A stretch of 64,000 bases of DNA from positions 62,001-126,000 of the forward strand of contig MPMM01000002.1 in NCBI GenBank assembly GCA_002238505.1, in the 5' to 3' direction. The notes beneath the pieces are model-generated. The model did not search any database. It worked only from the letters and a program-made list of their open reading frames with translations, and was not told the origin of the DNA. Position numbers and translations under genes: made by a program. The stretch is from SAR202 cluster bacterium bin22. Lineage in GTDB: Bacteria > Chloroflexota > Dehalococcoidia > Lucifugimonadales > UBA3495. Below, one piece after another: positions 58,744 through 62,124 of this stretch; position 1 is the first letter of the stretch, and every line of letters starts with the position of its first letter.

Positions 58744-59640
58744 CTAGTCGCCAATTCTCCGGTACCACTCCGCAATTGCTGTCCCTACCTCATCCGGAGA
58801 GTCTTCCTGGATGAAGTGAACGCCGGGGACGGTTACTTCCTGCTGGTTGGGCCAGGCGCGGCAAAACTCCCGCTGGGCGCCAGTCAGTATTGCTCCCGGT
58901 TCAGCGTTAATGAACAACTTGGGGATGTCTGACCTGGAGAGCCAGGTGGCGTACTCATCGACAATGGCGACCACTTCCGGTGGTTCTCCCTCAATGGGAA
59001 TGTCTCGTGGCCAGGAAAGGGTGGGGCGGCGAGATTCGCCAGGCTCCTGGTAGGGGCGACGATAGACATCCATGGCTTCCTCGCTGACGCCATTCAATGT
59101 GCTGCCCGGCAACACTCGCTCCACGAAGACGTTGCTGGTCAAGACCATTTCCTCTCCTGCCGAAGAGCGAAAACCCTGGAATACCCGCCGGGCTGCCTCG
59201 GGCCATTCCTCCCAGGTAAGGGGACGTACCAGGGCCTCCATATAGGCCAGGCCCTTGATTCGTTCCTGGTTACGAAAGGCCCAATGGAATCCAAGGGCTG
59301 ATCCCCAGTCGTGGACTACCAGCGTGACCGGACCCTCGGGTATTACGGCGTCAAACCAGGCATCCAGGTGGCGGCGGTGGTCAACAAAGCGGTATGAACC
59401 GTCGGGAGTCTTTCCCGAATCTCCCATGCCGACCAGGTCTGGGGCCAGGCAGCGGGCCAGTGGCTCCACGTGGGGAATGACGTTCCGCCACAGGTAAGCG
59501 CACGTCGGGTTGCCGTGGAGGAATACGACGGGCGCCGCTCCCGAATTTGCCCCAGTGTCCACGTATGAGAGTTCGACGCCGGCACATTGTATACGGTGAC
59601 GGGTGTAGGGGTCGTGGGCGGGAATGTCATGGTCAGGCAT
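58744..59640 (-). CDS. dhaA: haloalkane dehalogenase
   Basis: This 298-residue alpha/beta-hydrolase matches the HLD-II type. Nucleophile Asp111 and halide-binding Trp112 lie in VVHDWGSALG, halide-binding Asn44 in LHGNPTCAYLWRN, Glu135 in YMEALVRPLTWEEWP and His275 in GVHFIQEDSP. The positions are close to those of DhaA. It would hydrolyse carbon-halogen bonds to alcohols. GAGGAGAT precedes the ATG. Substrate range is unknown. Convergent with the Uma2 gene. Confidence 0.93.
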   Translation of the reverse strand: MPDHDIPAHDPYTRHRIQCAGVELSYVDTGANSGAAPVVFLHGNPTCAYLWRNVIPHVEPLARCLAPDLVGMGDSGKTPDGSYRFVDHRRHLDAWFDAVIPEGPVTLVVHDWGSALGFHWAFRNQERIKGLAYMEALVRPLTWEEWPEAARRVFQGFRSSAGEEMVLTSNVFVERVLPGSTLNGVSEEAMDVYRRPYQEPGESRRPTLSWPRDIPIEGEPPEVVAIVDEYATWLSRSDIPKLFINAEPGAILTGAQREFCRAWPNQQEVTVPGVHFIQEDSPDEVGTAIAEWYRRIGD

Positions 59641-59884: not shown

Positions 59885-59959
59885 GGCTAAGAGAGACCAA
59901 CCAGCCATCCGGTATTGTCGCTGAAACCGGAACCTCAACTGTCTCCAGGAGGTTTGCCT

Positions 59960-60505
59960 ATGTCCCCAGTCACTAACGGCCAGATTACAGTGTTGAATCC
60001 CACCGCGCCGCCGCGAGAGTTGCGGACGGACATGGCATTGCGCCCGGAGGATTTGCGGGGGAAGAGCGTCGGATTTCTCTGGAACAGCAAGCCAAATGGA
60101 GATGTGCTGTTCGGGCGGGTGGAACAACTGCTGCGAGAGAAGTACGAGATTCCGGAGGCGCTGTACCGGCGCAAGCCCACGGCTTCCATTCCGGCGGAAT
60201 CGCAGGTTATCGAGGAACTGGCCGCCCGGGTGCAGGTGGCCGTGGTGGGACTGGGCGATTGAGGGTCCTGCACTTCGTGGAGTATCCACGACGCAGTGGA
60301 ACTGGAGCGGCGGGGCGTTGCCACGGTTACTGTCTGCAGCCACCTGTTCCAGCGACTGGGCGAGGTGGAACGGCGGTCGCTGGGAATGCCGGACCTGCCC
60401 ATGGCCATAGCTCCCCACCCCATAGGTGGTATGCCGGCCGAGACTGCTTCCGCCAAGGCTGATTCCCTTTTTGAAACCATAGTTGCGGCGCTGACCAGGC
60501 AATAG
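59960..60505 (+). CDS. UGSC-family selenoprotein (in-frame TGA = selenocysteine)
   Basis: This 181-residue protein reads through TGA at 60260-60262. Residues 91-105 are VQVAVVGLGD-U-GSCT, the UGSC motif; the same frame continues with SWSIHDAVELERRGVATVTVCSHLF to TAA-type stop at 60503. A stem-loop starting 5 bases after the TGA fits a bacterial SECIS. The ATG at 59960 has AGGAGG 7 bases upstream. The U-G-S-C pair would form a redox-active selenenylsulfide; the substrate is unknown. Short ORF calls split it into two pieces. A homologous family with U or C here is known, so a pseudogene is unlikely. Confidence 0.9.
60267..60297 (+). promoter_or_regulatory. bacterial SECIS-like stem-loop
   Basis: CTGC (60268-60271) pairs with GCAG (60293-60296), then TCGTGGA (60275-60281) pairs perfectly with TCCACGA (60285-60291) around loop GTA. 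The apical G-U lies 20-21 bases after the TGA, inside the 16-37 base window expected for SelB-bound bacterial SECIS elements. It also encodes SCTSWSIHDA. Confidence 0.75.
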
Positions 60506-60561
60506 GCTGCCCGCGTCGCCACCCACTTCTTGATACTCTTCCTTCCAATGGAGGCAATCCC

Positions 60562-61587
60562 TTGGCGTCACTGGAAGCCCAGCGCATTGACCTGCCCGAT
60601 GACTACGATGCTGTCCAGAACCTTTACCTGGAGCGGGGGTGGAGTGATGGCCTGCCGATAACGCCGCCCACGCCCGAGCGAGTGGAGGCGATGCTGGCCA
60701 CTGTCTCCCTGGAGCCTGGGCACGTGGTCGCACAGCTACCTCCCAACTGGGGCGACGCCACTGTGGAGCGACTGGCCATCAACGCAGTAATGGCTGGCTG
60801 CCTGCCCGACTACCTTCCCGTCATAGTTGCCGGTGTCTCTGCCATGAGCGATCCGGCCTTCAATCTGTATGCCATCCAGGCGACCACCCATTCCTGCGCG
60901 CCCCTGTTCATCGTAAACGGCCCGATCCGGCAGAAGCTGGGCATGAACAGTTCATCGGGAGCATACGGCCCGGGCTGGCGGGCCAACGCCACCATTGGGC
61001 GGGCGGTGAGGCTGGCCCTGCTGAATATTGGCGGGGGACACCCGGGCGTGGGAGATATGTCCACCCAGGGCGCGCCATCCAAGTACACCTACTGCGTAGC
61101 CGAGAACGAGGAGGCGAACCCGTGGGGGCCCCTGCACGTGGAACGGGGGTTTGAGCCGGACCAGAGCACGTTAACCGTGGTGGGTGGAGAGCCGCCGCAC
61201 AACATCAACGACCACACGGGCAGCACCGCCGAGGAAATTCTGACCATTATTGCCGGGGCGATGGCCGTCACAGGCGCCAACAACGCCTACACCGGCGGCG
61301 AAACCCTGCTGGCCCTGGGCCCCGAGCACGCGGCGACAATGCACATCGACGGCTTCACTAAGGATGACATTCGGGACTGGCTGAACCGCCACGCCCGCGT
61401 CCCACTGGAACGGTACACCGAGGCCACCATGCTGGAGCGTTTCGGACAGATTCCCGACGGCCCCGTTCCCATGGTGGGCAACCGCGAAGACCTGGCGATT
61501 ATCGTGCTGGGCGGGCCGGGGAAGCACTCCTCATGGGTGCCAACTTTTGGCGGTGCGACGAGGTCGGTGACGAGGGTGGTTGGGTAG
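60562..61587 (+). CDS. conserved UGSC-partner protein of unknown function
   Basis: This 341-residue protein lies 56 bases after the UGSC gene. It starts at TTG 60562 with GGAGG 7 bases upstream. Conserved-looking blocks are GWSDGLPITPPTPERV, AINAVMAGCLPDYLPVIVAGV, THSCAPLFIVNGPIRQKLGMNSSSGAYGPGWRANATIGRAVRLALLNIGG and PSKYTYCVAENEEANPWGPLHVERGF. The last block and the T-x-x-C-x-P segment look like a family I have seen only as uncharacterised. A cysteine in HSCAP may be functional. The terminator at 61638 ends the two-gene unit. Confidence 0.78.
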   Translation: MASLEAQRIDLPDDYDAVQNLYLERGWSDGLPITPPTPERVEAMLATVSLEPGHVVAQLPPNWGDATVERLAINAVMAGCLPDYLPVIVAGVSAMSDPAFNLYAIQATTHSCAPLFIVNGPIRQKLGMNSSSGAYGPGWRANATIGRAVRLALLNIGGGHPGVGDMSTQGAPSKYTYCVAENEEANPWGPLHVERGFEPDQSTLTVVGGEPPHNINDHTGSTAEEILTIIAGAMAVTGANNAYTGGETLLALGPEHAATMHIDGFTKDDIRDWLNRHARVPLERYTEATMLERFGQIPDGPVPMVGNREDLAIIVLGGPGKHSSWVPTFGGATRSVTRVVG

Positions 61588-62124
61588 GGGGCCTGGCTGG
61601 CTGCCGCAATAGAAGCCGTACTCATGGTGTTTATTTGGGAGAAGCGAAGGGGCTTCTCCCTTTTTTGTTGGGCTGGATGAAATGGTGAGGGGAAGCTGCC
61701 TCGTTGAGGACCTGGGAAAAACCAGTTTAACCTGTCATTTCCGCTCAATTGTCGCCATTTTGTATTTGGAGGTCTGCACCTTCCACCCGATGATGAGCGG
61801 GTGATTGAGCGCGTTCCCGCTACTGATTCTTTAAGAGTTATGCAATTCAGGGTGGTGGACGGCAATTTCTTGACGGACCTTCCAAGGCTTAATTGTTTTG
61901 TATTCATGATGAACATGGGTAAAGCGATTTGGGAAGGGGGGATGGTCAGTTCAAATGAGTGTAAAGATGTTGGAGGGCGGCGGGGTTGATGACAGTTGCT
62001 GGTTGGTTTCGTGGGGATCCTTGGATAACGTGGTCTAAGTGTTCCATTGTTTGAGGCAATTTCAACGTTTTGTCTCTCTAGGGAATGCATAAATTTGATG
62101 CGTAAAAGAGGTAGAGATTAAGGA
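61588..62124. other. intergenic region after UGSC operon
   Basis: Apart from the terminator at 61638 this 537-base region holds no gene I can support. An open frame on the plus strand (61801-61989) lacks a ribosome site and known motifs. Confidence 0.5.
61638..61667 (+). terminator. rho-independent terminator of UGSC operon
   Basis: GGGAGAAGC (61638-61646) pairs with GCTTCTCCC (61653-61661), loop GAAGGG, followed by TTTTTT. It lies 50 bases after the partner gene's stop. Confidence 0.93.

Follow-up and report, generated by a model that had tools for sequence, protein, structure and literature searches.

Organization of the locus and selenocysteine in its first gene

The window is a 64,000-nucleotide stretch of contig MPMM01000002.1 of SAR202 cluster bacterium bin22. 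According to the open reading frames and the sequence, two genes lie in tandem in it: the gene of a UGSC family selenoprotein is followed after a gap of 56 bases by the gene of a partner protein of 341 amino acids, and this in turn by a terminator-like hairpin (Table 1). This layout, proposed in the initial annotation, was borne out, although the terminator scan found 2 terminator-like sites in the real sequence and 1.4 ± 1.2 in shuffled sequence, which is about equal. The three partner blocks quoted in that annotation, THSCAPLFIVNGP, GRAVRLALLNIGG and YTYCVAENEEANPWGP, were all found in the partner protein. The divergent neighbour at 58744-59640 of the window, on the minus strand, encodes a haloalkane dehalogenase (NF002938, 416.7 bits, cut-off 241).

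Table 1. Features of the UGSC-partner locus (positions refer to the window)
Feature	Position	Strand	Basis and remarks
RBS-like AGGAGG of the UGSC gene	59947..59952	+	sequence
Gene of the UGSC family selenoprotein (181 aa, Sec included)	59960..60505	+	ATG 59960, stop TAG 60503-60505; PF24696 and NF041046 above cut-off
In-frame TGA, Sec of the U-G-S-C motif (context GLGDUGSCTSW)	60260..60262	+	sequence; TGA in 184/184 relatives
SECIS-like stem-loop TCGTGGAGTATCCACGA (TCGTGG-AGTAT-CCACGA), 15 nt downstream of the TGA	60275..60291	+	fold, covariation
RBS-like GGAGG of the partner gene	60550..60554	+	sequence
Partner gene, 341 aa	60562..61587	+	TTG start 60562 common to close relatives, stop 61585-61587; no Pfam/NCBIfam family
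Partner Cys80 codon (MAGC)	60799..60801	+	kept in 77/78 partners
Partner Cys178 codon (YTYC)	61093..61095	+	kept in 68/78 partners
Intrinsic-terminator-like hairpin GGGAGAAGC..GCTTCTCCC with T run (TTTTTT)	61637..61670	+	terminator scan

The product of the first gene scores well above the cut-off of the Pfam family PF24696 (E 4.9e-51, 173.7 bits, cut-off 25) and also above that of NF041046 (139.7 bits, cut-off 125). At the genome loci of relatives, TGA occupies the U position in 184 of 184 distinct UGSC domains. The stem downstream of it comprises six pairs, which show standard pairing in 84% of cases, compared with 70% when the 3′ partners are shuffled (maximum 73%). Changes on both sides of the stem, for example from GC to CG at two of the pairs, are seen among the 176 distinct sequences; since the stem overlaps conserved codons, part of its conservation is driven by the protein. 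The constancy of the TGA together with the SECIS-like stem indicates that this codon is read as selenocysteine and is not a random stop. The host genome contains SelB and a tRNA-Sec with the anticodon UCA. By curated cut-off, motif and SECIS, the gene in the window is a member of the UGSC family.

Association with the partner family and expansion in one genome

The initial annotation had made its reading of the pair as a redox system depend on a pairing conserved across genomes. Such a pairing was found. Among 294 genomes of the host's class, UGSC genes were detected in 94 and partner genes in 89; the overlap of the two genome lists amounts to 88 genomes, while 28 would be expected by chance. 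When the partner was used as the query, UGSC was adjacent or fused to it at 58 of the 64 loci fetched, and two of the six remaining loci are cut by a contig end. The host genome itself carries four genes of each family; all of them are paired, and in one of the four pairs the two are fused. More than 40 pairs are encoded as single-chain fusions, and these come from Chloroflexota, betaproteobacteria, Rokubacteria, Zixibacteria and Neobacillus. The pairing is thus real, near-obligate and strongly conserved across phyla, in bacteria as well as in archaea. The order and the spacing of the genes vary and yet the association is kept, which argues for a physical complex. The annotation had further described the system as uncharacterised. 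This holds for the function, but the association itself is partly known already: a 2008 survey of Global Ocean Sampling data describes a fusion of UGSC to a conserved domain named Unknown_1 (PMC2398784), and Unknown_1 is very probably the partner family of the window.

Several plasmids carry variants of the pair. In the haloarchaeal plasmids L246, L252, L256 and L259, one Cys-type UGSC gene is flanked by two different partner genes in the order partner-UGSC-partner. On a plasmid of Paracoccus ferrooxidans (L257:7001-13748), a Sec-type pair is annotated as three hypothetical proteins; selB lies a few genes downstream, and the neighbouring DsrE, TusA and cysteine desulfurase genes may have a role in selenium or sulfur handling. 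The IncP conjugative plasmid of Acidovorax sp. T1 (L244) has a Sec-type fusion, whose annotation stops at the UGA, between IS elements and TctC-type genes. On plasmid pNgVX of Neorhizobium galegae (L258:6707-8375), a fusion of the CSTC type is apparently split by a frameshift. It is followed by a TrxB-like gene that is absent from the gene table, and genes for malonyl-CoA synthase and decarboxylase adjoin it.

The family is strongly expanded in a groundwater Chloroflexota genome (JACPQD01, hereafter G271). When the best 150 of 208 candidates from this genome were taken, at least 150 UGSC genes above the cut-off were obtained, and all but four of them, that is at least 146, have the in-frame TGA. 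A stretch of 400 kb contains 38 UGSC genes, all with TGA and 37 with a partner. Because only 30 of these 38 are among the 150, the total for G271 is estimated at about 190. Inflation of the count by near-identical duplicates was rejected for the 400 kb, in which the pairwise identity has a median of 28% and a maximum of 78%. Reassignment of TGA was likewise rejected, as TGA ends 23 of 88 genes for partners and solute-binding proteins. SelB is present; a tRNA-Sec was not found among the 150 of 734 candidates scored. The estimated contamination of the assembly is 7%. A 2026 review names selenoproteomes of 57 and 63 selenoproteins as the largest (PMC13188914), so that at least 146 UGSC genes with in-frame UGA in G271 stand against 63 in the largest published selenoproteome that was found. 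The UGSC genes of G271 (contigs C99, C97 and others; loci L147-L175 and L212-L231) are interleaved with genes for oligopeptide-type solute-binding proteins, and genes for a glycyl radical enzyme and an aldehyde ferredoxin oxidoreductase also occur among them.

Relationships of the two proteins and their gene neighbourhood

Profile comparison aligned UGSC with GrdB through the U-x-x-C region at an HHalign probability of 95-96%. Among ten neighbour families used as controls, nine unrelated ones gave 0-3% and a Rossmann dehydrogenase gave 21%; five column-scrambled GrdB alignments gave 0.1-0.2%. The Pfam GRDB model (PF07355) does not reach its cut-off with UGSC, and at E <= 0.001 the Pfam search reports the UGSC family alone. 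The homology to GrdB is therefore remote. A structural model of a natural UGSC-partner fusion gave one confident fold (pLDDT 91, pTM 0.91). In its UGSC part (residues 25-177) the matches are of the Rossmann/flavodoxin type with Z of 9-11, and the selenocysteine is placed right before the helix that comes after a strand. No thioredoxin fold is among the matches listed for this part, but UGSC may still have one. On the profile and modelling evidence, UGSC appears to be a Rossmann-like domain related to GrdB and PrdB, the selenocysteine subunits of glycine and D-proline reductase; this relation is new here, and its extension to PrdB would follow from the kinship of PrdB with GrdB. Two single-domain GRDB (PF07355) proteins are encoded elsewhere in the host genome (G000:C39:37378-37788 and G000:C53:155111-155596). 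Another Chloroflexota genome (G169) has 18 GrdE-like and 7 GrdB-like matches, an apparent radiation of glycine-reductase-type enzymes.

Genes of the thioredoxin system adjoin the pair in some relatives. The order is trxB-trxA-partner-UGSC on an Arthrobacter plasmid and partner-UGSC-trxB on a Roseovarius plasmid, and on a Variovorax plasmid trxB lies three genes upstream of the pair. The three TrxB proteins are all above the cut-off of TIGR01292, and the Arthrobacter TrxA is above its NCBIfam cut-off. In Haloterrigena and in Neorhizobium, the gene immediately after the pair is TrxB-like; the Haloterrigena protein scores 231 bits, which is below the cut-off, and has the motif CAKC. In sum, trxB or a trxB-like gene stands beside the pair in five relatives, all of the Cys type, and trxA in one. 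In the window, the pair has no thioredoxin gene next to it, and around the Sec-type genome loci that were retrieved one TrxB-like gene at most was detected. Glycine reductase uses the thioredoxin dithiol; D-proline reductase is NADH-dependent and is not fed by thioredoxin (PMC10298544), so kinship with GrdB does not by itself imply thioredoxin. Three kinds of extracytoplasmic solute-binding protein (TctC, SBP_bac_5 and TRAP) recur near the pairs, as do CaiB CoA-transferases, MmgE/PrpD, 2-hydroxyacid dehydrogenases, an amidase and a TPP enzyme. In the 400 kb of G271, 24 of 38 pairs have a gene for a solute-binding protein on their own strand and no more than 500 bp away, compared with 4% under random placement.

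These data bear on the possibility that the pair serves general thiol redox homeostasis: UGSC would be an oxidoreductase of the thioredoxin-like kind or a peroxidase, and the partner would be the specific substrate, protein or peroxide, on which it acts. The U-x-x-C motif and the thioredoxin-like fold assigned to UGSC in the literature (PMC13188914 and PMC2398784) speak for it, and the linkage to trxAB would suit a client of thioredoxin equally well. We consider it improbable, since the UGSC model is Rossmann-like and the profile leads to GrdB; the genes around the pairs serve uptake and catabolism rather than stress responses, and some 150 divergent paralogues in one genome suit a diversification of substrates better than homeostasis.

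The partner gave nothing convincing in searches of Pfam, NCBIfam and PDB sequences, although the threshold for Pfam and the PDB was relaxed to E 10. Homology to GrdE/PrdA was ruled out at the profile level for GrdE (HHalign 0.4%), as was the assumption that the partner corresponds to a part of GrdB (0.2-0.3%). As a relation to either is undetectable, any role assigned to the partner is a guess. Its own model is confident (pTM 0.91) and has no significant match among PDB folds. The C-terminal part resembles chorismate mutase and YjgF-like folds with Z under 7, which is read as a common arrangement, and the best Foldseek match, to class I fumarases, is non-significant (E 8.5e-3, prob 0.38, TM 0.27, rmsd 15.7).

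The conserved residues of the partner, D29, C80, N119, R147, E181-N186 and W188, form a pocket. The initial annotation had singled out cysteines in its three blocks as possible participants in redox chemistry with the U-x-x-C centre. One of these, C178 in YTYC, is mostly conserved, but C112 in THSC (within THSCAPLF) is kept in just 17 of 78 partners, and the best conserved cysteine, C80, lies outside all three blocks. The proposed co-variation of partner cysteines with the U/C state of the neighbour was not seen for C80. The UGSC motif is DCGSC in haloarchaea, Arthrobacter, Roseovarius and Embleya and MCGSC in Variovorax, and C80 is retained in the Cys-type haloarchaea, actinobacteria and proteobacteria checked, except Neorhizobium (motif CSTC), in which position 80 is Ala. 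Alanine also replaces C80 in the Zixibacteria locus L067, and C178 is absent from several haloarchaeal partners. The argument from cysteines is therefore only partly right, while a redox role is backed independently by the trxB and trxA genes that accompany the pair in distant relatives.

Plasmid-borne fusions of Sporomusa (L247:6311-8035) and Vibrio (L248:6368-8053) have the motif DMGTS, with U changed to Met and C to Ser, and keep C80; both lie near genes for aconitase X and DUF126. The partner may accordingly have a second, non-redox reaction of its own, or these may be altered enzymes; this is the chief reservation about the enzyme model proposed below. Such fusions would fit a partner that is a metal or Fe-S hydro-lyase or isomerase, in which C80 and C178 would be the ligands, and a UGSC domain that serves as an accessory for activation or repair. 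The conservation of the two cysteines and the weak resemblance to fumarases point the same way. This explanation is nevertheless unlikely, given the non-significance of the fumarase match, the broad conservation of just two cysteines, each lost in some lineages, and the near-universal selenocysteine, which makes a mere accessory role costly. Less probable still is a pyruvoyl enzyme with C80 cleaved to the pyruvoyl group, as would be suggested by the relation of UGSC to GrdB, by the near-invariant C80 in a loop between two helices of the partner model and by the formation of pyruvoyl from cysteine in GrdE and PrdA (work cited in PMC10298544), because the partner is unrelated to GrdE by profile, tolerates Ala in place of C80 in Zixibacteria and Neorhizobium and is confidently modelled as an unbroken chain.

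Proposed enzyme and comparison with known systems

We propose that the products of the two genes together make up one enzyme, a reductase coupled to thioredoxin, which most likely carries out a reductive cleavage of its substrate; the chances of this full model, with its individual steps, are judged to be about even. Reduction as the reaction, and cleavage in particular, are suggested by analogy with GrdB and PrdB. The two proteins would form one active site. The substrate is probably a small organic acid or amine, which would be imported by a dedicated transporter and would differ between paralogues. The partner would bind and activate it, taking the role of the pyruvoyl subunits GrdE and PrdA despite belonging to an unrelated family. 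The selenolate of Sec101 of UGSC would then attack the substrate covalently, and Cys104 of the U-x-x-C motif would resolve the selenenyl intermediate as a selenenylsulfide. Electrons from NADPH would pass through thioredoxin reductase and thioredoxin to re-reduce the U-x-x-C centre.

More tentatively, and with somewhat less confidence than in the model itself, the pairs may represent a new class of thioredoxin-coupled selenoenzymes for the reductive cleavage of organic molecules taken up from outside. This class would parallel glycine and D-proline reductase, though the subunit that binds the substrate would be unrelated to theirs, and its 150-190 or so paralogues in one Chloroflexota genome would make the largest known selenoproteome by more than twofold. 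If the radiation is true, selenium-dependent reductive catabolism of small organic compounds would be far commoner among bacteria of groundwater and the ocean than has been supposed, and would extend outside fermenting clostridia. Now that UGSC is connected with the GrdB/PrdB superfamily and with thioredoxin reductase and has a near-obligate partner, ordinary enzymology can test its function directly. Cultured carriers are Neobacillus bataviensis, Paracoccus and Acidovorax, and Cys forms are available in Arthrobacter, Roseovarius and haloarchaea.

Class I fumarases, the best but non-significant structural match of the partner, have no sequence similarity to it that was found. For the families PF24696 and NF041046, the partner pairing, the relation to GrdB and the thioredoxin linkage are absent from the descriptions in the literature searched. 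In the UGSC/Unknown_1 protein of PMC2398784, too, a UGSC domain shares one chain with a second, conserved domain that has conserved cysteine; it is reported there as a fusion only, in a supplementary figure, whereas here a near-obligate gene pair is found across phyla and in archaea. With GrdB (PF07355) and PrdB, the pair has in common a remotely homologous selenocysteine domain with UxxC, a second subunit and, in Cys-type relatives, linkage to a thioredoxin reductase gene. It differs from them in that UGSC consists of one domain and scores below the PF07355 cut-off, in that the partner is not GrdE or PrdA, and in that the pair also occurs in haloarchaea, proteobacteria and actinobacteria.
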